64,000 bases of DNA from Halpernia humi (GTDB lineage: Bacteria; Bacteroidota; Bacteroidia; Flavobacteriales; Weeksellaceae), in assembly GCF_900108025.1 (NCBI RefSeq), contig NZ_FNUS01000005.1, forward strand, positions 1 through 64,000. The letters are read 5' to 3'. The translations under genes and the position numbers were made by a program. Under the pieces are notes generated by a model. That model was not told the origin of the DNA. It made no database searches and saw nothing but the letters and a program-made list of their open reading frames with translations. The first letter of the stretch is position 1, and every line of letters begins with the position of its first letter. Shown here piece by piece: positions 9,075-54,025 of this stretch.

Positions 9075-10790
9075 TTACTTTTTAGAATTGACTTTTCTAT
9101 TTCGCTTTTTCTGAAGTCTTTTTTTACTTCCTTTTTTTTGAGGCATTTTTTTATAGAAATGGTCGTATGCATAGACGGCCGCTTTATATAAATCTATAAC
9201 ACCACCGGTTTTAGAAATTTTATCAAAAGTTAAAGTTGGATCATCAGCTATTCCTGCATTTACAGTTGATTTGTTTACAGTTTTCTCCAAAGATTCTATT
9301 ACTTGTGCAGGCGTAAGATTCGGCATATAAGCCATCAAAACTGCGGCGGCACCTGCTACAACTGGCGATGCCATAGAAGTTCCGTCTAAATATTCATATT
9401 TATTGCCTGCTACAGAAGAATAAATTTGTGCACCTGGCGCAAAAACATCAACCATTTTTTGATTATAATTAGAAAAACTGGCTTTCAAATTGGCATCATC
9501 GTCTGTGCTCGCCCCTACTGTTATCATATTATTTAGAAATGGCGCAGGATCTGAAACACTTTTAAAATTGGTAGGGAAATTCTCCTCTTTCATCAAATCT
9601 GCATTATCATTTCCGGCAGCGTGAACTAAAAGTACACCTTTATCTTGAGCATATTTGAAGGCTTCCCAAACTTTCTTTTTACCAGGCGAAACCGATTTAC
9701 CAAAACTCATGTTAATGATTTTAGCACCGTTATTTACCGCATAATAGATGCCATTTGCAATATCTTTATCTCGCTCATCTCCATCTGGCACGGCTCTAAT
9801 TGTCATTATTTTCGCTACTTTATCTGCAATACCGTGTTGAATTTCGTCTCCATTTGGTTGCCCCGCAATGATGCCTGCGACGTGAGTTCCGTGGAGTGCA
9901 TCTGGTCCCTCGTAATCGTTATTTCCATAATATCTTTCATTAATATTAGAATAATCATCACCTACGATTGGGCGTGGATCAAAATCTAAATTATATTGTT
10001 TTGTGGCTTGTGGCTCAAAATAATCAAGACCGTCTTTTATTTCTTTGGTCAATAATTTTTGAACCTCTTCTGCACTTTTGCCCTTTAACGAAGGATCTTT
10101 TATGGCTTGGGATAATACTTGCAAATTTCTAGCATCATCTTGTGTCGAAGGTTTGATGTTTGCCAAAGTTTCTTCCGTTAAATCTTTCCCACCTAGCAAA
10201 GCAACAATTGCAGGGATACGATCATAAATAGCTTTATAAGTTTGGTAATTTTGTTTTGCCTCCATACTTTTCTTAGTATATAAATCTTTAGATTTCATAT
10301 ACATTGCAAATTCTTCGGGCATTTTTGCTTGGTTTGCTTTGTTTGTGGCTGTAACTGGGCCTTCAAAAACATCTTTGTATTGGCGAATAACGCGTGTAAT
10401 TTCTAAATTATCTACGTCTACATCACCATTTTTACCGCCAATAAAATCCCAACCATGAACATCATCTACATAGCCATTTTTATCATCATCAATCCCATTA
10501 CCAGGAATTTCATTTGGATTTGTCCAAATATTACCTTTTAATGCTGGATGGTCGATCTGCACACCGCTATCTAAAACTGCCACAATTACAGTTTTTGGCT
10601 TTAATCCTTTAGAATTCAAAAAGTTATAAGCATTTTGTGTATCTACTCCATAAATTTTTGTGGTTGCAAAATCTTTATGGTACCAAGTCATCAAATCTTT
10701 ATCTTGCATTGGATCATTGGACGTAGTTGCAGTTTGTGCAAAACCTAAAAATCCGCTAAGAAATAACGCGGCTATAAAAAACTTTTTCAT
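9075..10790 (-). CDS. Secreted S8 family serine peptidase (subtilase)
   Basis: Exported subtilisin-like protease of 571 residues with an N-terminal signal peptide (about residues 1-19). The catalytic triad is Asp74 (AVLDSGVQIDHP), His300 (HGTHVAG) and Ser472 (DGTSMASP), with the oxyanion Asn in HAAGNDN near 394. A long insert between Asp and His (about 130-270) is typical of Bacteroidetes members. The C-terminus has no T9SS sorting domain. It ends in about 25 residues with more than half Lys/Arg, which is odd for a secreted enzyme. A conserved 84-nt leader shared with three other genes precedes the ATG. Confidence 0.93.
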   Translation of the reverse strand: MKKFFIAALFLSGFLGFAQTATTSNDPMQDKDLMTWYHKDFATTKIYGVDTQNAYNFLNSKGLKPKTVIVAVLDSGVQIDHPALKGNIWTNPNEIPGNGIDDDKNGYVDDVHGWDFIGGKNGDVDVDNLEITRVIRQYKDVFEGPVTATNKANQAKMPEEFAMYMKSKDLYTKKSMEAKQNYQTYKAIYDRIPAIVALLGGKDLTEETLANIKPSTQDDARNLQVLSQAIKDPSLKGKSAEEVQKLLTKEIKDGLDYFEPQATKQYNLDFDPRPIVGDDYSNINERYYGNNDYEGPDALHGTHVAGIIAGQPNGDEIQHGIADKVAKIMTIRAVPDGDERDKDIANGIYYAVNNGAKIINMSFGKSVSPGKKKVWEAFKYAQDKGVLLVHAAGNDNADLMKEENFPTNFKSVSDPAPFLNNMITVGASTDDDANLKASFSNYNQKMVDVFAPGAQIYSSVAGNKYEYLDGTSMASPVVAGAAAVLMAYMPNLTPAQVIESLEKTVNKSTVNAGIADDPTLTFDKISKTGGVIDLYKAAVYAYDHFYKKMPQKKGSKKRLQKKRNRKVNSKK

Positions 10791-10874
10791 ATGTTGATAT
10801 TTATTGTTTTTTTGGTCATATGTAATCGCTGAATCTTCATACGTGTTTGCGTTTGTAAATCATGGCGATTTCAT
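10791..10874 (-). promoter_or_regulatory. Conserved 5' leader, copy a (upstream of subtilase)
   Basis: One of four related leaders in the window. Read on the minus strand it starts ATGAAATCG, carries GCAAAC, ATGAAGATTCAGCGATTAC and CATATGACC, then an A-rich stretch of exactly 23 nt before the ATG at 10790. The start codon lies in CATATG as in the other copies. Role unknown; the fixed distance to the start suggests a regulatory or translation-related 5' region. Confidence 0.6.
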
Positions 10875-10967
10875 ATTAATTTTGATTAATTTTAATTTGT
10901 AATATATAAGCGCTCATCAAGAATTATATTTGTTGCATAATTTTGAAATAGCAATTTTCTCTTAATT

Positions 10968-11576
10968 TTAAATTGATTTTCTTAAATAAATTAAACTTTC
11001 TGGGCCAAGGTTAAAAAGTAAATCACACACGGATAAATCATATATAAAACCATATTTTTCTGAAAAAATTTGATAATAATTTTCAAAATTTTTCTTGGAT
11101 TCTTTTTTTGCCGAAAATTCTTGCCTCAAATCTAATGCCGAAGTTTCAGCCTCATACTTTTCGGTGAATTGAATATTTTGGTCTATTTTTAAAAGATTGA
11201 GCAAAATCTCAAGAGCTTTTAAATTGAAATCGAAAAGATATTGTTCTTGATTTTCGTAAATTTTCGCAAATCGATCTTCATAAAATTCAAAGTAAGGCGA
11301 ACTTTGATAGGCATTTTTTATGGATTTCCAGTGTTGTTTTTGCCAATTTTCAGCGTAGGAAATCTCGGTTTCTTTGTAAAGTCTTTTTCCTGTGTGGTTG
11401 ATTGGAATTACCAAAGATAATTTTCCGTTTGCGCCGTAAATATTGGTTCTGTTGCGGAAAGTTTGTTTCGGAAAATTCTCGAATTTCTCTAGAATTACTT
11501 CTGAATCTTTTTTCAGAAATTCTGAAAACCAAGAGATATTTGGTAAATAAAAAAGTGGTAAAAGCTGAATATTCAA
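10968..11576 (-). CDS. WbqC family protein
   Basis: Cytosolic protein of 202 residues. The N-terminus MNIQLLPLFYLPNISWFSEF and the conserved run YETYxKQTFRNRTxIxGANGxxxLxIPI (here about residues 35-62), then NWQKQHWKSIKNAYQSSPYF near 92-111, identify the WbqC-like family, found in O-antigen and other surface-polysaccharide loci. Its biochemical role is not established. In flavobacteria it commonly follows lepB, as here, although a 469-base repeat-filled gap separates the two. Confidence 0.88.
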   Translation of the reverse strand: MNIQLLPLFYLPNISWFSEFLKKDSEVILEKFENFPKQTFRNRTNIYGANGKLSLVIPINHTGKRLYKETEISYAENWQKQHWKSIKNAYQSSPYFEFYEDRFAKIYENQEQYLFDFNLKALEILLNLLKIDQNIQFTEKYEAETSALDLRQEFSAKKESKKNFENYYQIFSEKYGFIYDLSVCDLLFNLGPESLIYLRKSI

Positions 11577-11593
11577 TGTTGTTAATTTTTATT

Positions 11594-11816
11594 AAAAACT
11601 TTGTCAAAGTTACTATTGTTGCGCTTTAAAACTTTGACAAAGTGTGAAGTAAAGTTTTTGCGTTCATTCTCTATATTTTTTATTTAAAGCTTTGTCAAAG
11701 TTACTATTGTTGCGCTTTAAAACTTTGTCAAAGCGTGAAGTAAAAAAGCTTTGTCAAAGTTACTATTGTGCGCTTTAAAACTTTGACAAAGTTTGAAGTA
11801 AAGTTTTTGCGTTCCT
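11594..11816. repeat. Threefold hairpin repeat array (CTTTGTCAAAG family)
   Basis: Three copies of a unit of about 60 bases start near 11594, 11686 and 11746. Each has CTTTGTCAAAGTTACTATTG at one end and TTTAAAACTTTGACAAAG (or TTTGTCAAAG) at the other, so each can fold into a hairpin with 11-13 bp arms. Copies 1 and 3 both continue into GTAAAGTTTTTGCGTTC. No reading frame is preserved. It fills most of the gap between wbqC and lepB. Confidence 0.8.
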
Positions 11817-11880
11817 CGGCTATATACTAAACTTAAATTACTTTTACCTAAAAATAATTATTCTTAGAAGAAAATTACTG

Positions 11881-25720: not shown

Positions 25721-25903
25721 AGGAGCAAAACGGCTTTACTTTCTTCGACTATTACGCGCGCTGTTCATTCCAATCTTTTTTTCTTTATCGAAGAGCCTAC
25801 ATAAAAAGAGGATTTCTCTGAAAGAAAAAAAGGATTTTCCCTTCCATCGCGGCTAGGTTGAGGCGATTTTTTTTGTTCGACGGGATTTTTTGCGAAAAAT
25901 TTT

Positions 25904-26148
25904 CAATAAAAATATTTCTGTATGTCCGTCATTCATCATAAATGTTTTTTACTTTTTAAGGCATTTGTTAAATGAAATCAAAGATTCGACGAAGTCAAAC
26001 GCCTTTATCAATGTTTTTTATAATAGTTTTAGAGGAATTGATGATTCTTCGATTTGCGACCTTAAAAACATGACTTAGACAGAGAGTCAATAAAAATCTT
26101 TGCGTTTTTCGCGTTAAAAATTAGCATTATGATTGAAAGCGAACATCC
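25904..26148 (+). repeat. Dispersed repeat of about 240 bp, copy A
   Basis: Closely similar (most bases identical by eye) to the reverse complement of 53785-54025. Shared landmarks are TGTCATTCATCATAAATG-type sequence, AAACGCCTTTATCAATG, CTTCGATTTGCGACCTTAA and TTAGCATTATGATTGAAAGC. Substitutions and small indels are spread through it and no reading frame is kept in both copies. It occupies the centre of the 961-base gap between the RhlE-like gene and ppc. The segment 25721-25903 before it holds a weak ATCGC/GCGAT hairpin with a T run and no gene. Confidence 0.8.
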
Positions 26149-26427
26149 AAAAAAATATTATACAATTTTATCTTTGAATTTTTCGACAAATAAAAATGCT
26201 CCGTAGGAGCAATATCTTTGTAGAAAAAATGAACAATATCGAAAAAGAACTCCCTAGGAGTTTTTTTGTTCTTCGCGTAAAAATTAGCATTATGGTTGAA
26301 AGCGAACATCCAAAAAAATATTATACAATTTTATCTTTGAATTTTTCGACAAATAAAAATGCTCCGTAGGAGCAATATCTTTGTAGAAAAAATGAACAAT
26401 ATCGAAAAAGAACTCCGAAGGAGTTCA
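26111..26427. repeat. Tandem duplication with a 163-bp period, bearing promoter-like boxes and hairpins
   Basis: Two nearly identical units (about 26111-26262 and 26274-26427). Each has two TATCTTTG boxes 44 bases apart (26169, 26213; 26332, 26376), a hairpin TGCTCC-GTA-GGAGCA just before the second box, and a second hairpin AACTCC-NNN-GGAGTT near its end. In unit 1 the last hairpin is followed by T7, like a terminator; in unit 2 it is not. The first 38 bases of unit 1 overlap the end of the dispersed repeat. Confidence 0.85.
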
Positions 26428-42948: not shown

Positions 42949-42999
42949 GATAATATTTAAAAAAATCAATATTTTTGGAATTGAAAAACAAATATTATT

Positions 43000-43085
43000 A
43001 AAATTTCTATTAACAAGTCTGCAAACGAACATAAATGAAGATTAAGGCGATAGCATTTGACCTTAAAAAAATTAAAAATCTACAT
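43000..43085 (+). promoter_or_regulatory. Conserved 5' leader, copy d (upstream of lipoprotein gene)
   Basis: Shares with the other three copies GCAAAC, ATGAAGATTAAGGCGAT, GACC at 43059-43062, then an A-rich 23-nt stretch ending ATCTACAT before ATG 43086. It is closest to copy b at 45731-45818, which has the same AAAAATCTACAT end. It is the only plus-strand copy, again in the orientation of its gene. Confidence 0.6.
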
Positions 43086-43532
43086 ATGAAAAATCTATTT
43101 ATCTTTTTTTTACTTTTAATAGTAACGGCTTGTTCTCGGTCGGAAAATATTGTAGAAGACACTCCCGATAAACCAACGCCTACTGAAACGCCGGGAACTA
43201 TTGATAACATTAGTGGAGAATGGCGTTTGGTAAAAGTAGAAACTTTCAATGGACATATTGATTTTTCCAATGAAAATATCATTTATAACTTCCAACAAAA
43301 TGATGTTTTAAAAGTAAACGGAGCAATAAATCCAAGCCTGCAAAATGGAGAATACAATTATGAATATAAAATTGACTATTTAAACGCATCTCCGACATCA
43401 ACGGATCCAAAAATTCCAATTGTAAAAATTAGTAACCTAATATATGCTGTTGTTTACTATCCTACTTCTGGTACTTTAGTTTTAGATCGATCTTACGTCG
43501 ATTCTGGAACATATTTTTTAAAAAGAAAGTAG
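43086..43532 (+). CDS. Lipocalin-like lipoprotein of unknown function
   Basis: 148 residues with a lipoprotein signal (LLIVTAC, Cys17), a Pro/Thr-rich linker (about 25-42), and a domain opening ISGEWRLVKVETFNG, a lipocalin-like start, followed by beta strands to the end YFLKRK. The reading frame is open back to 43035, but the ATG at 43086 gives the signal peptide and matches the position of the start in the three other leader copies. No partner gene is evident; the next gene is on the other strand. Confidence 0.75.
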   Translation: MKNLFIFFLLLIVTACSRSENIVEDTPDKPTPTETPGTIDNISGEWRLVKVETFNGHIDFSNENIIYNFQQNDVLKVNGAINPSLQNGEYNYEYKIDYLNASPTSTDPKIPIVKISNLIYAVVYYPTSGTLVLDRSYVDSGTYFLKRK

Positions 43533-43577
43533 AAATTAAATTTTTGAGTATTTACAACGAAAAATTAAAATTAATCC

Positions 43578-44096
43578 TTATAAATTCGTCAATTTATCAA
43601 TCGTCTTCTGAATTTCTGGATCTTCCGGCGTTGTAGCATAATATTTTGCAATATAACCATTTTGTGAAATCACCATCAAACGGGGAATCCAGTTGAGTTC
43701 TACATAATCATTAAACTTATTCTTCCAACCTGCAGAAAAGAAATAATTTTCTTTTTTTTCTAAATCGTGTTTTTTTAATCCTTTTTTCCAAGCATCAAAA
43801 TTTCTATCCAAAGAAAAATAAACAAAATCTACGTTTGCATTATTCGCAACCAATTCTTTGGTTTTGGGTAAAGCCTTCAAACAATCTTGGCACCAACTTG
43901 CCCAAAAATCAATCACCAAAACTTTGCCTTTGTGCTTTGCAATAATGTCTGAAATTGGTAATTCATTCCCATTTATATCCATTATTCTTTGGGAAACGGC
44001 ATCTGGTGTGAATTCAATTTTATTGATATCTGGTGCTTTTTGCGAAAAAGCAAATGAAAATATAAGTATGCTAAAAACACAAATTAATTTCTTCAT
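43578..44096 (-). CDS. TlpA-like thiol-disulfide oxidoreductase, exported
   Basis: 172 residues with a signal peptide (1-18, FAFSQ). The thioredoxin-like fold has LVIDFWASWCQDCLKALP with a CxxC motif (Cys-Gln-Asp-Cys near 67-70) and the cis-proline region WIPRLMVISQNG near 138-149. It is a periplasmic reductant or resupply protein for cytochrome or sulfhydryl maturation by family analogy. It lies 8 bases after the GH13 gene on the same strand, so it is probably co-transcribed. Confidence 0.88.
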   Translation of the reverse strand: MKKLICVFSILIFSFAFSQKAPDINKIEFTPDAVSQRIMDINGNELPISDIIAKHKGKVLVIDFWASWCQDCLKALPKTKELVANNANVDFVYFSLDRNFDAWKKGLKKHDLEKKENYFFSAGWKNKFNDYVELNWIPRLMVISQNGYIAKYYATTPEDPEIQKTIDKLTNL

Positions 44097-44104
44097 TATT
44101 TATT

Positions 44105-45730
44105 TTATTTAATTTTCTCCAACAAAACTACGGAAGAATTACTGTAAAACGAAACTTTGCCATCAATTACTGGCATTGAGGCTTTCGAATAAAAATCACG
44201 AATTTGCGAACCATTGGCAAAAACACCTTCAACATTTACTTCTTTTAAATCTCCTTTAATATCCAATCCGATTATCACTTTGTCATCATTTAAAATCCTA
44301 GAAAAATAATAAGGACTTTTTGAAATCATATTATGAAAACCCGCACCGATTGCTGGATGATTGGCTCTAAATTTCCCTAAAATTTGATAATATTTTAATA
44401 ATTTTTGAGTTTCTGGATTGGTTTTTTCATCGTTCCAATTCATATCAGAACGAAGATTGGCGTCGCCTTCTGCACCTTTCACTTCTAAAGGTCTTGCACT
44501 TTCATCGCCGTAATAAATTTGCGAAACGCCCGGTGCAAGCAATAATTTTGTGGCCGCTTCATAAGTTCGAGTTCTGTTTTTGTCGAAAGGCGAACCGTCG
44601 TCGTGCGAAGTCAAATAATTTAGAACACTTTTTCCCTTTAGATCAGAATGCAAAAGGCGGTCGTAAGAAGAAAAAAGTTCTTCATAAGATTTGTTGGCAT
44701 CGCCTTTAAAATCAAAATTTATCAAAGAATGAAAGCCATTTTCAAAAAAATTGACTTTTTTATCGCCGTAATTATAAATCTGTTTTTGCGAAATTCCATA
44801 GCCGTAAACTTCTCCAACGGTATAAAATGGCTCATTATCTAAAACTTTAGACGGATTATTTTTTTTGTATTCATCAAATGCATCTTGACAAACTTTCTGG
44901 AAATCTTTCCAAACATCTGCGTTGGTATGTTTTGCCGTATCAACTCTGTAACCATCAATCCCGTCTTCTCTCACATAATCTGAAAGCCATTTCATAATGT
45001 AATATTTCGGCGCTCTTGGGTAGCCTGTTTTTGTAAAAAATTCGTCCAAAGATTTCATTTCAGAATCGTAACGTCCTTCTTTTTTCCATTTATCGGTCAA
45101 CATTTTTGGTAATTCTACGGGCGTATTATCTTCAGTTTTAATGTCTGGTAAATTTGCTACCAAAGTACATTCCGTTGTATTTTTATAATTATTATAAGTG
45201 CAAGTGGGCGAAGTTCTCACCCAATCTTGTGGATAAACGGGATCTAGATTTGTAACCGGGCCGGTGTGATTGATGACGGCGTCTAAAACAATTCTAATTC
45301 CTTTTTTATGCGCTTTTTCCACCAATTCTTTTAAATCTTTTTTAGTTCCAAAATTAGGATCCAAAGCCGACCAATCTTTCGCCCAATAACCATGATACGC
45401 ATAAGTTTTTCCCGTTCCTTCATCTGTAAAGCCATGAATTTGTTCTACAATTGGCGTCATCCAAATGGCATTAATTCCTAAATCTGAAAAATAATTATCA
45501 TCAATTTTTTGAATAATTCCACGTAAATCGCCACCTTCAAAACCTCTTAAAATAGCGGCTTTTTCAGTGCGGTTAAAATTAACATCATTCGATTTATCGC
45601 CATTTTTAAAACGATCGGTCATTAAAAAATAAAGATTTGCACCGTCCCACGAGAATTTATTTTCTGGTTTTGTAACTGTTTTACAAGAACTTAAAAGCGC
45701 TAGAAATGCAATTAAAATTAATTTTTTCAT
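44105..45730 (-). CDS. GH13 alpha-amylase family lipoprotein
   Basis: 541 residues with a lipobox (LLSSC, Cys16). GH13 regions: I DAVINHTG (Asp150-His155), II GYRVDTAKH with nucleophile Asp264, III GEVYG with acid/base Glu307, IV LTSHDDG with Asp377. A C-terminal beta domain follows (about 455-541). It is likely outer-membrane-tethered and acts on starch, glycogen or maltodextrin, complementing the secreted GH57-like enzyme at 29.4 kb. No susCD pair is in the window. A conserved 88-nt leader lies before its ATG. Confidence 0.93.
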   Translation of the reverse strand: MKKLILIAFLALLSSCKTVTKPENKFSWDGANLYFLMTDRFKNGDKSNDVNFNRTEKAAILRGFEGGDLRGIIQKIDDNYFSDLGINAIWMTPIVEQIHGFTDEGTGKTYAYHGYWAKDWSALDPNFGTKKDLKELVEKAHKKGIRIVLDAVINHTGPVTNLDPVYPQDWVRTSPTCTYNNYKNTTECTLVANLPDIKTEDNTPVELPKMLTDKWKKEGRYDSEMKSLDEFFTKTGYPRAPKYYIMKWLSDYVREDGIDGYRVDTAKHTNADVWKDFQKVCQDAFDEYKKNNPSKVLDNEPFYTVGEVYGYGISQKQIYNYGDKKVNFFENGFHSLINFDFKGDANKSYEELFSSYDRLLHSDLKGKSVLNYLTSHDDGSPFDKNRTRTYEAATKLLLAPGVSQIYYGDESARPLEVKGAEGDANLRSDMNWNDEKTNPETQKLLKYYQILGKFRANHPAIGAGFHNMISKSPYYFSRILNDDKVIIGLDIKGDLKEVNVEGVFANGSQIRDFYSKASMPVIDGKVSFYSNSSVVLLEKIK

Positions 45731-45818
45731 ATGTAGATTTTTATATTCTTAAAGGTCATATGTTATCGCCTTAATCTTCATTTGTGTTTGTTTGCAAATT
45801 TGTAAATGACGATTTCAT
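45731..45818 (-). promoter_or_regulatory. Conserved 5' leader, copy b (upstream of GH13 gene)
   Basis: Read on the minus strand: ATGAAATCG at the far end, TTTGCAAAC, ATGAAGATTAAGGCGAT, CATATGACC, then exactly 23 nt to the ATG at 45730. It contains a short open frame of 15 codons starting at the distal ATG (MKSSFTNLQTNTNED) and ending in TAA, which is not clearly kept in copy a. Confidence 0.6.
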
Positions 45819-45911
45819 AGTAAAATTTAAAAACTGAAAGTTAATTATAAATCTTTAAATCTCTTAAACAATAAGTTTAAAAATTAATTTTAACATTCCT
45901 TTAACATTTTA

Positions 45912-45919
45912 TATCTTTG
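45912..45919 (+). promoter_or_regulatory. Promoter -7 box (TATCTTTG) for the glycan locus
   Basis: Matches TAnnTTTGC, 22 bases before the FkbM ATG at 45942. Confidence 0.55.
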
Positions 45920-45941
45920 CTTAATCAATTTTTAAAAATCT

Positions 45942-46745
45942 ATGTCACTATACGTTGAGCTTGCTGAAAAATTACAGTTTATTTCGCCTAACTTTTACAA
46001 GACTAGGTTTTTTAAAAAAATTGATGGTTTAAATTCACATAATTTAAAAGTGAGAAACGTAGAGCCAGAAATGCTTTGGCTAAAAAATTATCTAAAAAAA
46101 GATTTTGTTTTTTTTGATATCGGAAGCAATGTTGGAAGTTATTTGAGACTCGTTGAAAATATTTTAAATCCTAAAAATATTTACGCTTTTGAGCCCAACC
46201 AAAGACTTTTTAAAAGATTAAAACGTTTATTCCCGAAAGCAAATTTGTTTGACCTTGCACTTTCTGATGAAAATACGGAAGCAGAATTTAAAATCCCCGT
46301 CATAAAAGGACAAGAAAAAAATTCGCGCGGAACACTCAGAACAGATTTTTCTGAAAATAATGAAGAAAAATTCATCATCGAAAAAGTGAAAGTTCAAACT
46401 TTTGATTCTTGGATTTTAGATAAAAATATCTCAAAAATTGACATCATAAAAATTGATGTGGAAGGCAATGAAATGAAAACTTTACGCGGTGCAAAAGAAA
46501 GTATTTCTCATTTTAGACCTATTTTATTAGTAGAAATGGAACAAAGACATCACGAAGAACATCTCAAAAATTTAGTTGAAGAAATTGAAAATTGGGGATA
46601 TTCTGCAAATTATTTAAACCGAAAAACGTTTGAACTTGAACGACTTTCGGATGAAATTTATTTAAGTCAAAAAAAATCAGAAATTGAAGATAAAAACGGT
46701 TATATCAACAATTTTATTTTTATCCCAAATCAAGCAAAAATATGA
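45942..46745 (+). CDS. FkbM family methyltransferase
   Basis: 267 residues. The SAM-binding motif is VFFDIGSNVGSYLRL (about 55-70), with the acidic residue in IYAFEPNQRLF. The FkbM signature IDIIKIDVEGNEMKTLRGA (about 164-182) is followed by ILLVEMEQRHHEEH. It probably O-methylates a sugar of a surface glycan. It overlaps the flippase gene by 4 bases (ATGA), so the pair is translationally coupled. Confidence 0.9.
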   Translation: MSLYVELAEKLQFISPNFYKTRFFKKIDGLNSHNLKVRNVEPEMLWLKNYLKKDFVFFDIGSNVGSYLRLVENILNPKNIYAFEPNQRLFKRLKRLFPKANLFDLALSDENTEAEFKIPVIKGQEKNSRGTLRTDFSENNEEKFIIEKVKVQTFDSWILDKNISKIDIIKIDVEGNEMKTLRGAKESISHFRPILLVEMEQRHHEEHLKNLVEEIENWGYSANYLNRKTFELERLSDEIYLSQKKSEIEDKNGYINNFIFIPNQAKI

Positions 46746-48220
46746 GTGTAATTGCACGACAGGGATTTAAATATTCCATCATTGGCTATTTGGGTTTCCT
46801 TTTGGGAACGGTTTCTGCGATTTTTATTTTCCCGTACGATGTGAAATTTTACGGAAAACTGCGCTACATTATGCCAATGGCGGAAATTATTTTGCCAATT
46901 GTAGTTTTTGGAATATCATATTCTAATGTGAAATTTTTCTTTTCTACCAAAAATGATGGCAAACATCAAAACCTACTATCATTGAGTTTGGTAGCCGTTT
47001 GCATTAATTTTTTAATTTTTATAGGCGGTTTCTTTCTCGCCGCTTATTTATTTCCAGAATTAAAAGTGACGAAACTTTGGAAAATGAAACTAATCATTTT
47101 GCCTTTGGTTTTAGTTCTCGCTTTAAGCACGGTTTTCAATAAATATATTTCAAATTATAAAAGAATTGTAGTTCCGAATATTTTAGATAATTTTTTACCG
47201 AAAATTGCAAATTTAGGCGCGTTTTGTCTCTTTTTCTTTCTTGCGTTTCAAGAAAAAATAGCGTTTTATTTCTTTTTTGGAATGTTCGTTTTGGGACTAA
47301 TCGCTTATTATTTTTACACCAATAAATTAGAAAAATTTACGCCAGATTTTTCTACAAATTATTTTAAAAAAGATAAACTTTACAAACAAATTTTCAATTA
47401 TAGTTTCTACGGATTTCTTGGAAATATCGGAACTTACATTGCTCTAAGAATTGATAATGTGATGATTGGCGACTATCTTGGCTTTCAGGAAAATGGCGTT
47501 TACAGTACTTTATTGGCAATAATTTCTTTAATTAGTATTCCTTCGATGGGTTTGTACGCTATTTCTGCACCACTGATAAATGAACATTTAGAACTAAAAG
47601 AATACGAAGAATTAGATGTTTTTCATAAAAAAACTTCACTCACTTTGTTCTTTTTAGGACTCGTTTTATTTTCTTGTATTTGCGTGGGATTTCCCTTTCT
47701 CACAAGTCTGATGCAAAACGGAGAACTATTTAAACAAGCAGAACCCGTGATTTGGATTTTAGGAATTTCTACCCTTTTCGATTTGGCAACTGGTTTCAAC
47801 GGCTACATTATTTCACTCTCAAAATTCTACCGTTATTCCACATTTGTAATGGCAATTTTAGCAGTTTTAACCATCACACTCAATCTTTATTTCATTAAAA
47901 ATACCAGTTTAGGATTACTCGGAATCGCAATAGCGACGGCAATTTCTTTAACTTTATTTAATATCATTAAAATTATTTTTAATTATACAAAATTCAAAGT
48001 TCAGCCGTTTACGATTGAGATGATTTATGCAGCAATTATCGGTACTTTGGGAATCGCAGTCGCCGTTATGTTGCCAGATTTTAAAAATAATTTTGTGAAT
48101 TTAGTGTATAAACCAAGCTTGGTTTTGGTTTTTTTCTTGATCGGAAACTACTTCCTTAAAATTTTTCCTTTAGAAAAATATTTAAACAAATCTTTTTTGA
48201 AAAGTATTATTAAATTTTAA
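46742..48220 (+). CDS. Polysaccharide/oligosaccharide flippase (MATE-like, Wzx-type)
   Basis: Integral membrane protein of 492 residues with about 12-14 helices and short loops. The N-terminus RQGFKYSIIGYLGFLLGTVSAIFIFPYDVKFYGKL and the mid-protein YGFLGNIGTYIALRIDNVMIGDYLG fit the Wzx/MurJ-like exporter superfamily. It would move a lipid-linked sugar across the inner membrane. Its stop overlaps that of the convergent glycosyltransferase gene by three bases (48217-48220). Confidence 0.88.
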   Translation: MSVIARQGFKYSIIGYLGFLLGTVSAIFIFPYDVKFYGKLRYIMPMAEIILPIVVFGISYSNVKFFFSTKNDGKHQNLLSLSLVAVCINFLIFIGGFFLAAYLFPELKVTKLWKMKLIILPLVLVLALSTVFNKYISNYKRIVVPNILDNFLPKIANLGAFCLFFFLAFQEKIAFYFFFGMFVLGLIAYYFYTNKLEKFTPDFSTNYFKKDKLYKQIFNYSFYGFLGNIGTYIALRIDNVMIGDYLGFQENGVYSTLLAIISLISIPSMGLYAISAPLINEHLELKEYEELDVFHKKTSLTLFFLGLVLFSCICVGFPFLTSLMQNGELFKQAEPVIWILGISTLFDLATGFNGYIISLSKFYRYSTFVMAILAVLTITLNLYFIKNTSLGLLGIAIATAISLTLFNIIKIIFNYTKFKVQPFTIEMIYAAIIGTLGIAVAVMLPDFKNNFVNLVYKPSLVLVFFLIGNYFLKIFPLEKYLNKSFLKSIIKF

Positions 48221-49284
48221 AGCAATTTCTCTAAAACCGGCTCTAACTCCTGCAAAACCTTATCTTTTTGATATTTTTGATGAAGACCAACAGAATCATT
48301 TTTTAAAACATCTAAAATCTGAAGTTCTACATCTTCTTTTTCTTTTATAATAAACGGTTTTGAAGTGTAATATGATTTTCTAAAAATAGACAATTTCCCA
48401 TATTTTATCGCATCGCCAATATTGCCAGACATTTTGGTTTTGCCATATATTTCGCGCTGACCAAAAAATTTAGAACTTCTTCGCACACGACACCACAAAA
48501 TATCGGCGCTATTCATTATCTCTTCGTATTCTTTATGCGGAACTTTTTCAGTAAAATATTTTATAGAAATAATCAGATCATGCTTTTTTTCTAAATTTTG
48601 CAACCAAACCAATTCTTTTCCACTAGCTTTACCCAAAAAAATAAATTGAAAATTCTCAGGGTTTTGAAAATTTAATATTTTACTAATAATCATCAAATAG
48701 TCTCTTCGCTCTTGGGAAACGCTTCCCGGAATAACAACTTTTTTTATTGAGTTCTGTGGCTTTTTGCTGAATTTTGTATAAAATAAAGGCAGGAAAATCA
48801 AACTTCTAAATCGATTTATTTTAAGAAACCAAGCCAAATCTTCATCTAAATAAAGAATATTTTTTGCTTTGCTGAAAACTTTTGGTGCTGAAAACAAACC
48901 TTCTCTTAAAAATAATTTTAACCTGTAAATAAAATCTTTTTGAAAAATACTTTTTAAAAGATTAAATTTTGAAATGCTACAAAAATTAAAATTATGGCAA
49001 ATAACAGAAGTATTATATTGCTCCGCCAACTTTAAATAAACATTAAAATGCCGATGAACAGTGCCAATAATAACTAAATCATAATGCTGAGCAGAAATTT
49101 GTTTCAAAATAGTACGAGCAGAACTTAGAAAAATAGTGTCGCTTTCTTTCAAGTTTAGTTGTCCTAAAATTTTTTCAGAGAAATAAAAATCTACTTTAAA
49201 ACGTTTAGAATTTACTTCTAATTCTAAGAAATTGCTCGCAATTTCTGCGTGCGTATCCAACTCTATGAAAGCAATTTTTTTCAA
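48217..49284 (-). CDS. Probable glycosyltransferase (GT-B-like), weakly related
   Basis: 355 residues, not a clear member of a named family. N-terminal Rossmann-like half (KKIAFIELDTHAEIASNFLEL, HYDLVIIGTVHRHFN) and C-terminal half with KKVVIPGSVSQERRDY, FQFIFLGKASGKE and a segment EYEEIMNSADILWC that resembles the donor-site region of GT-B enzymes. A GxG-type motif GNIGDAIKYGK follows. Context supports sugar transfer: GT2 gene directly upstream (3 bases), flippase convergent downstream. Confidence 0.7.
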   Translation of the reverse strand: MKKIAFIELDTHAEIASNFLELEVNSKRFKVDFYFSEKILGQLNLKESDTIFLSSARTILKQISAQHYDLVIIGTVHRHFNVYLKLAEQYNTSVICHNFNFCSISKFNLLKSIFQKDFIYRLKLFLREGLFSAPKVFSKAKNILYLDEDLAWFLKINRFRSLIFLPLFYTKFSKKPQNSIKKVVIPGSVSQERRDYLMIISKILNFQNPENFQFIFLGKASGKELVWLQNLEKKHDLIISIKYFTEKVPHKEYEEIMNSADILWCRVRRSSKFFGQREIYGKTKMSGNIGDAIKYGKLSIFRKSYYTSKPFIIKEKEDVELQILDVLKNDSVGLHQKYQKDKVLQELEPVLEKLL

Positions 49285-49287
49285 TTT

Positions 49288-50124
49288 TTAGAATTTATTT
49301 TTAATTTCTTGCCAGCGCAATTTACGAATAAATTGAATTTCTTTTTTATTTAAAATCATCTCATTTTTTTGGTTTAAAAAAGATTTAATAATCATAAAAA
49401 ACTCAGAAATTGATTTATTTTTAAAAGAAGATTTTGCCGAAGAAATGAGCATTAAAGGGAAACTCAAGCCAATATTATAAAAATACTCGCCCAATTTTTG
49501 TGCCTTTTGTTTTTTATATTTAAATGCCGTCGGCCGCAAATGTTTTACCCAAAGATCTTTTATGGTAACAGTTTCCCAATCGTACATTTTTGCGAGCATT
49601 ACATCAATATTGTCCCAACCTAAAACTGCGCGAAGTCCGTTCATATCTTCAAAACATTTTTTTCTGTAAGATTTTATCGGGCCGCGAACATGGTTTTTTG
49701 ACGATAAATTTTCGAAAATCCATTCGTTATTTTTTTCGATAAAAACCAAACCAGAAACCATTCCGGCTTTTGGATTTTGTACATAAACTTCATTAATTTT
49801 TTCTAAATAATTTTCAGGAAAAATAATATCGGCATCGAATTTACAAATGATATCAAAATCTTTTAAATCAATTTCATTTAAACCTTTGTAGAAAGTTTGA
49901 ACGACTTTTGCGCCAGGCTCGTGCGCTGATAATTTTAAATTTTGAATTTTAAATTTTAAATTACTTACAATAAAATTTTCAACAATTTCTTGCGTTTTAT
50001 CCGTCGAACCATCGTTTACAACCACACATTCAAAATTTTGAAAACTTTGATTTTGCAAAGAATCGAGGCAAGAAAAAATAAATTCTTCTTCGTTGTGAGT
50101 TGGAATGATGATGAGGAATTTCAT
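49288..50124 (-). CDS. Glycosyltransferase family 2
   Basis: 278 residues. GT-A fold with FLIIIPTHNEEEFIFSCLDSL at the start, VVVNDGSTDKT (DGS at 38-40) and the metal-binding DxD in CKFDADIIF near 104. An insert at about residues 54-66 is Lys/Leu/Asn-rich and is encoded by DNA like the AATTTAAAATTTAAAAT filler between genes, so it may be repeat-derived. It probably adds a sugar to the same glycan as the neighbouring genes. Confidence 0.88.
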   Translation of the reverse strand: MKFLIIIPTHNEEEFIFSCLDSLQNQSFQNFECVVVNDGSTDKTQEIVENFIVSNLKFKIQNLKLSAHEPGAKVVQTFYKGLNEIDLKDFDIICKFDADIIFPENYLEKINEVYVQNPKAGMVSGLVFIEKNNEWIFENLSSKNHVRGPIKSYRKKCFEDMNGLRAVLGWDNIDVMLAKMYDWETVTIKDLWVKHLRPTAFKYKKQKAQKLGEYFYNIGLSFPLMLISSAKSSFKNKSISEFFMIIKSFLNQKNEMILNKKEIQFIRKLRWQEIKNKF

Positions 50125-50129
50125 TGGAA

Positions 50130-50447
50130 TTATTCAGAAAGATTTTCTAATTTTTCTGGATCTTGACGGCAATCAAAAATATCATAAATCCTTATAAGTT
50201 GCACAGATTCAACTTTGTAAATAATTTTGTAATTTTTATAAACCAAATACCTAAAATCTTCATTTTTAAATTCCAAAAAAGGGTCTTTTTGACCTAAAAA
50301 TGGGTTATCAACTAGTTTTTTTGATTTGTCTATAATACCTTTTAAAATTTTGTTTGCAATTTTTAAACTTGCTACTTCTGTATAATAAACTTTAATATTT
50401 AATAAAGTTAGTTTTGAAGTTTTAGACCAAACAATTTTTGGTTTCAT
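50130..50447 (-). CDS. RelE/ParE family toxin
   Basis: 105 residues. The family pattern is seen: IVWSKTSKLTLLNIKVYYTEVASLKIANKILKGI (helical hairpin), NPFLGQKDP, and the beta segment FRYLVYKNYKIIYKVESVQLIRIYDIFDCRQDPEKL with the typical DxRQDPxKL end. It acts as an mRNA interferase or gyrase poison in characterised members. The cognate antitoxin gene is upstream, but the two are separated by the 87-nt conserved leader. Confidence 0.85.
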   Translation of the reverse strand: MKPKIVWSKTSKLTLLNIKVYYTEVASLKIANKILKGIIDKSKKLVDNPFLGQKDPFLEFKNEDFRYLVYKNYKIIYKVESVQLIRIYDIFDCRQDPEKLENLSE

Positions 50448-50534
50448 ATGAAGTTTCTATTTTTTTAAAAGGTCACATGCATTCGCATAAATTCATAAGT
50501 GTCTGTTTGCAAACTTGCTAATTGCAATTTCATA
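50448..50534 (-). promoter_or_regulatory. Conserved 5' leader, copy c (between antitoxin and toxin)
   Basis: Its distal ATG overlaps the antitoxin stop (ATGA). It carries the perfect palindrome GTTTGCAAAC, TTATGAATTTATGCGAATG, GTGACC, then exactly 23 nt to the toxin ATG. A 22-codon open frame runs through it (MKLQLASLQTDTYEFMRMHV...). It is the most divergent copy. Confidence 0.55.
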
Positions 50535-53622: not shown

Positions 53623-53784
53623 GAAATTAGAAGTGAGATTTTAGCGGGTGTTTATAAGTTTCGCTTTTCTTCTTTGCAAGTTTCATTTTTCTTTTAACAA
53701 GAAAAAATATTTTTTTTTAAAAATTCTCTAAATTTCTGTAGAATTTCATTTAACTTTACTATGTATTTTGAATTTTAATAATTT

Positions 53785-54025
53785 GGATGTCCGCTTTCAA
53801 TCATAATGCTAATTTTTAACGGAAGAACGCAAAGATTTCTATTTATTCTCTGTCTAAATCATGTATTTAAGGTCGCAAATCGAAGATTCATCACTTCCTC
53901 TAAAACTATTATAAAAACATTGATAAAGGCGTTTGACTGCGTCAAATCTTTGATTTCACTTAGCAAAGGCCTTAAAAAATAAAAACATTTATGATGAATG
54001 ACAGACATACAGAAAATATTAATAA
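53785..54025 (-). repeat. Dispersed repeat of about 240 bp, copy B (inverted relative to copy A)
   Basis: Reverse-complement match to 25904-26148 over its whole length. It lies between polA and the alpha/beta hydrolase gene and ends 9 bases before the latter's ATG. This copy has the palindrome TTTGACGCAGTCAAA where copy A has one changed base. The remaining part of the 424-base gap (53623-53784) shows no gene. Confidence 0.8.

Follow-up and report, generated by a model that had tools for sequence, protein, structure and literature searches.

Four genes in the window begin at the end of a related leader

The window analysed here is a 64-kb stretch of the genome of Halpernia humi (the own genome, G000, 3.12 Mb; other genomes are coded Gnnn), and four of its genes begin at the right end of a short repeated element. 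The original prediction had described four related leaders, each in the orientation of its gene, and all four were present as claimed. With the terminal ATGAAA included, the full elements lie at 10785-10875 (-), upstream of a subtilase gene (9075-10790); at 42997-43091 (+), upstream of a lipoprotein gene starting at 43086; at 45725-45819 (-), upstream of a GH13 amylase gene (44105-45730); and at 50442-50534 (-), between an antitoxin-like open reading frame (ORF) and a ParE-type toxin gene (50130-50447). They scored 86.3, 86.6, 106.1 and 81.4 bits, respectively, with R1, a covariance model built from 31 copies (L028 was excluded from the underlying alignment). The products had been called unrelated, and Peptidase_S8, Alpha-amylase and ParE_toxin were indeed matched above the Pfam cut-offs, whereas the lipoprotein gave only a sub-threshold match to Lipocalin_8.

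In the amylase copy, all parts lie on the (-) strand. Its left end, TATGAAA (45813-45819), corresponds to the former start codon of the gene, as described below. Covariation assigns the two arms of stem 1 to 45808-45813 (5' arm) and 45765-45770 (3' arm, GGCGAT). The internal hexamer CATATG (45757-45762), which would act as an anti-start, forms the 5' arm of the predicted stem 2, and the terminal hexamer CATATG (45728-45733), which contains the start codon in use (ATG, 45728-45730), forms the 3' arm. The 10785 copy, of subfamily B (AGCGATTACATATGACC), has its internal CATATG at 10817-10822 (-) and terminates in the start codon ATG at 10788-10790 (-). In the 42997 copy, TTA stands in place of the left ATG, an internal ATG at 43035 is in frame with the downstream lipoprotein gene, and the internal hexamer CATTTG (43054-43059, +) has one mismatch to the terminal CATATG. 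In the 50442 copy, the internal hexamer CATGTG (50474-50479, -) forms one G-U pair with the terminal CATATG, and the left end TATGAAA (50528-50534, -), the former ATGA overlap start of the toxin gene, has its ATGA overlapped by the stop TGA of the antitoxin-like ORF. The palindrome reported for one leader is GTTTGCAAAC in this copy.

In the own genome, BLASTN with the copy at 45.7 kb as query returned 45 matches at E<=10, including 32 below 1e-4, and R1 returned 85 at E<=10, including 67 below 0.01. The window leaders are therefore four copies of one repeat family, far beyond chance, with a size of 80-100 nt and up to 85 copies in the own genome. The consensus is TATGAAATCGCC...(~35 nt)...GGCGATNNCATATGACC-(23-24 nt, A-rich)-ATGAAA, and, judged by eye, it tends to have a genome-specific flavour. 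The ends are direct repeats (TATGAAA ... TATGAAA), and the sequence inverted relative to the left end lies inside the element. The GACC-to-ATG distance, predicted to be fixed at 23 nt, is 23 nt in all four window copies; over 73 own copies in alignment A3 it ranged from 16 to 26 nt (23 or 24 nt in 54 of them), so that a fixed spacing is ruled out and the spacing is near-constant instead.

A long form of 139-143 nt occurs at C2:68922 and C2:907230, with parts at C4:208558; at this length it is too short for a transposase gene. The left-end sequence ATGAAATCGCC occurs 34 times in G000, 28 times as the left end of a listed copy, once in a long form and five times apart. These five stand-alone sites hold no listed copy, and an ATG frame of at least 40 amino acids follows in four of them. 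A long parental form whose left end is an intact ATGAAATCGCC was not found in G000; a diverged parent or one in another genome is possible.

The element terminates at start codons of unrelated genes

We then assessed where the copies lie relative to genes. Among 72 own units of at least 38 bits, eight were array-internal (six by script and two by eye), which left 64 gene-adjacent units. Scored by whether the right end falls at the start of an ORF of at least 40 amino acids in the orientation of the gene, 63 of these 64 terminated at a start codon, including C8:23351 and C2:943245, where the start is a few bases away from the model end. The sole exception, C8:117069, opens a 9-amino-acid frame. 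Similar placement was found in relatives with G036 excluded (35 of 37 judged units), in named contigs (45/50), in loci found with a second model, R2 (39/41), and in the four further genomes G112, G170, G590 and G582 (30/35); the last two sets have four units in common, and the R2 locus L260 duplicates the named contig L218.

In the window, 19 of 60 listed genes open with ATGAAA. Outside gene interiors, this hexamer occurs 24 times at starts (element genes included) and 17 times at intergenic non-start positions, three of which are element left ends, leaving 14. Under the resulting rough null of 24/38, finding 63 of 63 at starts has a probability of 2.7e-13. By sequence likeness, the genes behind the copies are unrelated and include those for the amylase, the subtilase, the ParE-type toxin, CoaD, PyrH, RplY, EtfB, asparaginase, HisB, RND pump parts, glycosyltransferases and lipoproteins. 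In the ORFs counted above, the codon that follows the right ATG is mostly AAA and otherwise AAT, AGA, AAG or ACA, indicating that the shared core is ATGA.

Empty sites and arrays point to insertion at a captured start codon

G001, a genome of the same genus, is syntenic with this part of the window at 78-83% nucleotide identity. Nine own starts were chosen for comparison with it, and three gave clear empty sites: the amylase, toxin and hisB-like genes. The G001 amylase gene has no element, and its start region aligned without gaps to the own left flank plus TATGAAA, with 18 of 22 positions identical. A global alignment placed the gap a few bases further left, pairing G001 AAATCTA with the element tail, and the exact junction is therefore ambiguous within a few bases. 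In G001, the ATGA at which the toxin gene starts contains the TGA that closes the antitoxin frame, and no element separates the two genes. In the own genome, the antitoxin stop shares its bases with the element's left ATGA, and the right ATG is the start codon of the toxin gene. At the hisB-like gene, G001 reads ...AAGTAAATGAAAAAAGTA and the own genome ...AATTAA-AATGAAATCTCC...CACATGAAAAAAGTA, the element sitting between the upstream stop and the same start as in G001. Of the other starts, C2:58657 is consistent with an empty site, C2:231853 may have a decayed copy in G001, and at the remainder the upstream sequence was too diverged to place a junction. The lipoprotein gene behind the 42997 copy had no match in G001.

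ATGA(AA) is present at both ends of the element and as a single copy in the empty sites. These sites indicate that the left ATGAAA is the former start codon and the right one the new start codon. Across three score bins serving as a proxy for age (at least 85, 60-85 and 38-60 bits), the left ATG was intact in 16/20, 16/26 and 6/18 copies, and the right ATG in 20, 25 and 16 (plus two GTG). With increasing divergence, copies lose the old ATG and keep the new one, as expected if the old one is a former start codon.

Head-to-tail arrays were also observed. Six of them, at C3:56211, C5:79828, C2:151068, C2:983320, C2:1026949 and C4:208473, overlap by exactly 7 nt, TATGAAA in most. A further array of four units precedes a pyrH-like gene (L114, G000 C2:1340-1700) and has different stem letters, CATCC/GGATG and CATCTG/CAGATG. 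In five two-unit arrays the gene-proximal unit outscored the other, with a margin of more than 20 bits in four and of 5 bits in the fifth; this did not hold for three arrays of near-identical units (C3:56211, pyrH and C2:397600).

Covariation suggests a structure that covers the start codon

To describe the structure, we counted paired positions and changes on both sides of each stem. Stem 1 (ATCGC/GCGAT) was paired in 94.4% of cells, and both-side changes occurred in all five pairs, a result reached by 0 of 500 shuffles. In other genera the letters differ and still pair: ATCCCC/GGGGAT in G036, CACCC/GGGTG in G009, ACATCC/GGATGT in G112 and ATGGCC/GGCCAT in G461.

In stem 2, the internal hexamer would pair with the terminal hexamer that holds the start codon (CATxyz with zyx-ATG). 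Own copies showed 24 cells changed on both sides versus 7.0 after shuffling, and other genomes 18 versus 2.2, with 52 of the 93 rows in the latter count coming from loci picked by a pattern that fixes the internal CATATG. When these 52 rows of alignment A4 and two gapped rows of the 73 own ones were dropped, the variable trinucleotides paired fully in 72 of 112 copies, compared with 34.8 after shuffling (best of 10,000 shuffles, 49). Where both trinucleotides were off consensus, 31 of 47 paired versus 10.1 shuffled (best 19); where one side only was off consensus, 6 of 30 did. Examples are CATCTG/CAGATG, CATTTG/CAAATG, CATAAG/CTTATG and CATAGG/CCTATG, and CACGTG/CACGTG with a GTG start. Pairing of the internal CATA with the left TATG was seen as well, in 77.4% of cells and with 21 double changes versus 9.4 shuffled, two of its four pairs being part of R1. 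Because it pairs both with the left TATG and with the new start region, the internal CATA would have two exclusive pairings. As judged from this covariation, the start codon is part of a conserved structure in the sense orientation, as in a translational leader.

In one G036 copy (L063 1388-1500), the internal CATATG is interrupted by a palindrome of ~27 nt (CCTGCCTGCGTGATGCAGTCAGGCAGG).

The element appears to be retained at some orthologous genes

With genes named by sequence likeness, copies of the element at orthologous genes were found in G001 for uvrC, acrB and rplY (91-95% protein identity), in G030 for the asparaginase, DnaJ-like and DUF2892-like genes (84-88%) and in G008 for etfB (84%). 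Compensatory changes were found at rplY (CATATA/TATATG in G000 versus CATTTA/TAAATG in G001) and at acrB (CATATG/TATATG versus CATAAG/CTTATG). Eight distinct genomes (nine loci, two identical) have the element at a lipoprotein gene of Chryseobacterium, with conserved stem arms and right half and a variable loop, and a TATATTTG box, which we take to fit the Bacteroidota -7 box, lies shortly upstream. Retention of the stems in orthologous copies speaks for selection on the structure where it lies, in the 5' untranslated region (UTR), and at some genes the element appears to be kept by selection across species.

At the DUF2892-like gene of G030 (L138 7524-7642), the guide region of the copy contains an extra palindromic stretch, and the own ortholog (C2:334697) has the right half of the element only.

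Search for a mobilising enzyme

Seventeen bearers of the element were searched for candidate movers. The Y1 transposase (PF01797) was matched in 13 of them; at E<=0.001 there was none in G036, G301, G346 (one contig) or G582, each of which has several copies. All six Y1 matches in the own genome lay more than 2.5 kb from any listed copy, and the smallest distance was ~2.7 kb. Reverse transcriptase (PF00078) was matched in five of the 17 and not in G000. A Y1 transposase, absent from four bearers, and a reverse transcriptase of a group II intron or retron, absent from 12 including G000, were therefore both rejected as necessary movers. On the chromosome of G112 there were 19 PF00078 matches, many with identical scores, which suggests a large group II intron-like expansion.

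We also examined whether the internal hexamer matches the insertion site. In 117 of 177 copies, compared with 97.9 after shuffling, the base at left position -1 pairs with base four of the guide (57 of 234 rows with array-like flanks or non-CAT guides were dropped, and the L218/L260 locus was counted twice). This hints at guide-target pairing between the internal hexamer and the insertion site, which would be only partial, as a guide C meets G at -1 in 1 of 16 copies.

Proposed explanation and alternatives

The element lies precisely at the ATGA of start codons, brings a new start codon, forms arrays and has paired stems. We consider it probable (roughly 0.7) that it is a non-autonomous mobile element that captures start codons, supplies a new one, forms a start-covering hairpin and is sometimes kept by selection. 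It apparently spreads and at the same time is drawn into the translation of genes. The target core would be ATGA, preferably TATGAAA, with insertion directly behind the start codon of a gene or by its duplication. The old start codon would become the left end, and the right end would provide the new ATGAAA start with an A-rich initiation region. Because the right end brings a new start codon, the gene could stay translated, which the empty sites and the loss of the left ATG also support. The right end would again be a target, giving rise to head-to-tail arrays. After insertion, the element would be part of the 5' UTR of the gene. In the transcript, stem 1 would form together with a second hairpin that places the internal CATxyz on the zyx-ATG of the new start codon; the same CATA could instead pair with the old TATG, a competing partner, and the pairing would restrain the new start codon and thereby tune or switch translation. 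Pairing of the internal hexamer with the target may conceivably serve as the recognition step.

The original prediction had proposed either a functional 5' region or a mobile element. Both halves find support, insertion from the empty sites, arrays and lineage-specific copies, and a kept 5' UTR structure from covariation and orthologous retention; the exact distance and the leader peptide that it included did not hold.

Several observations weigh against this explanation. No mobilising enzyme was found, the Y1 transposase and the reverse transcriptase each being missing from several bearers. In G036, near-identical copies occupy ATGAAA sites between genes, and of the four array-terminal ends that were placed, none is followed by an ORF of at least 60 amino acids (one opens a 44-amino-acid frame), indicating that start codons are not obligatory sites. 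Variable placement, which had been named as the mark of a passive repeat, thus applies to the placed copies of G036 and not to those of the own genome, which lie at gene starts; outside G036, placement at start codons probably reflects selection or else a preference of particular lineages. The score bins used for the left ATG include the left end itself. The alignments were fitted to R1, which includes stem 1 and two pairs of its base but not stem 2, and the stem 1 counts therefore lean towards stem 1. The main caveat is that the shuffles ignore relatedness, so that subfamilies can inflate covariation. In addition, 40 of the 112 copies are not fully paired in the stem 2 trinucleotide, and single-sequence folding was mostly unremarkable (z from -0.6 to -4.0 in nine copies).

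A purely selfish repeat that inserts at any ATGA or ATGAAA, with only translatable insertions surviving and hairpins serving transposition as single-stranded DNA, is possible, though we hold it to be rather unlikely. It would account for similar copies within a genome with a genome-specific consensus, for the arrays and for the intergenic copies of G036, and the excess pairing at -1 (117/177 versus 97.9) is expected if the hexamer recognises the target. Yet the window offers 14 intergenic non-start ATGAAA beside 24 at starts, and only 1 of 64 own copies lies off an ORF start; double changes that keep the stems in orthologous copies also speak against it. More doubtful is a guide-directed insertion element, in which the internal CATx would find an xATG target and the same hexamer would later act as an anti-start switch for the old or the new start. 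Movement by a Y1 HUH transposase of the IS200/IS605 or RAYT (REP-associated tyrosine transposase) type, as for elements like REPs (repetitive extragenic palindromes) or PATEs (palindrome-associated transposable elements), is improbable. Hairpins, arrays, a specific target site, an internal stretch that complements both ends and the Y1 genes of 13 bearers would fit it, but the four bearers without PF01797 and the distance of at least ~2.7 kb between own Y1 genes and copies do not, and the internal guide lies 3' of the hairpin, in contrast to what we take to be the anatomy of IS608.

Start-codon placement, orthologous retention and covariation would equally be expected of an ancient regulatory 5' UTR family, a regulon without mobility that spread by recombination or convergence. 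We regard this as very unlikely: the empty sites already disfavour it, as do the arrays, the unrelated products and the 80-90% identity between copies that serve unrelated genes within a single genome. Least credible of all is a leader-peptide attenuator, in which the left ATG would open a regulatory upstream ORF (MKSP...). The left ATG is kept in 38 of 64 gene-adjacent own copies, and in 36 of these 38 the frame closes before the new ATG is reached, but by our own estimate ~90% would stop by chance at this A+T content. The frames vary from 4 to 29 codons and the left ATG is lost with divergence, so that a conserved upstream ORF is rejected.

Should the preferred explanation of a mobile, start-capturing element be true, it would represent a new route to translational control of bacterial genes, through a mobile structured start that replaces the captured one. 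By sequence likeness, housekeeping genes would be affected too (coaD, pyrH, rplY and etfB), and the element would bear on how flavobacteria choose and regulate start codons. Pairs of related species with and without it at the same gene provide a natural comparison of its effect.

Spread among Bacteroidota and relation to known systems

An exact-pattern scan of a genome collection yielded 51 stretches, in Chryseobacterium, Epilithonimonas, Kaistella, Cloacibacterium, Frigoriflavimonas, Confluentibacter, Gelidibacter, Flavobacterium, Aquimarina and Crocinitomicaceae, as well as in other Flavobacteriales/Bacteroidetes metagenome-assembled genomes (MAGs) and MAGs labelled Chitinophaga pinensis. 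With R2, the element was found in 92 of 395 sampled genomes of the order Flavobacteriales and in 24 of 296 of the phylum. The latter include four genomes that belong to the same class but to another family, and a single genome from a different class (G541, with two weak matches). Copy counts per genome from these scans saturate, as only 10 or 14 candidates per genome were scored.

In Rfam, the window scan matched only a tRNA and Flavo-1, neither on the element, and a scan of seven element loci at E<=5 gave three matches, all below the gathering score and none on the element; with no match at gathering score, a known Rfam family was rejected. Full-text literature searches, with most subscription journals outside their scope, found no description of the element. 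Rickettsia palindromic elements insert in frame inside ORFs. They are likewise small palindromic mobile repeats that enter coding genes and leave them usable, whereas the present element inserts at start codons and supplies a new one. REPs are extragenic and alternate in orientation in bacterial interspersed mosaic elements (BIMEs). With REP/BIME systems and their RAYT transposases the element shares many copies, hairpins and arrays, but it is head-to-tail, gene-oriented and not tied to Y1 genes. Miniature inverted-repeat transposable elements, for example those of Porphyromonas gingivalis, are also short and non-autonomous with a short flanking direct repeat; the present element lacks terminal inverted repeats, and its direct repeat ATGA(AA) is nearly always at a start codon. 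Start-codon-sequestering leaders, such as riboswitches and tetQ-type attenuation, have a hairpin over the start region, are not mobile and serve one pathway. The element is similar in its hairpin over the start and differs in its unrelated genes and mobile carrier.

Flavobacteria are stated to rarely use Shine-Dalgarno sequences (PMC8710568). A transcriptome study of F. psychrophilum lists 64 structured 5' regions, some without Rfam matches, any of which might be the element (PMC9723704).

Other repeats in the window

Flavo-1 RNA (RF01705, 60.1 bits) lies at 25750-25858 of the window. It has been described as a motif without known function that is widespread in Flavobacteriaceae (PMC9723704, PMC2864571), and its matches are reported to be indistinctly sense or antisense (PMC9723704). 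Such indifference would fit a mobile repeat too. Flavo-1 resembles the element as a widespread RNA motif; the element, in contrast, has no Rfam match. The Flavo-1 RNA adjoins a block of another repeat family, located at 25915-26425 and 53768-54015, which comprises a 148-nt tandem pair and inverted copies of 51-105 nt with 78-92% complementarity, ~27 kb apart. At 11572-11837, tandem palindromic units with the core CTTTGTCAAAGTTACTATTG...GCGCTTTAAAACTTTGACAAAG adjoin the ORF at 10968-11576.

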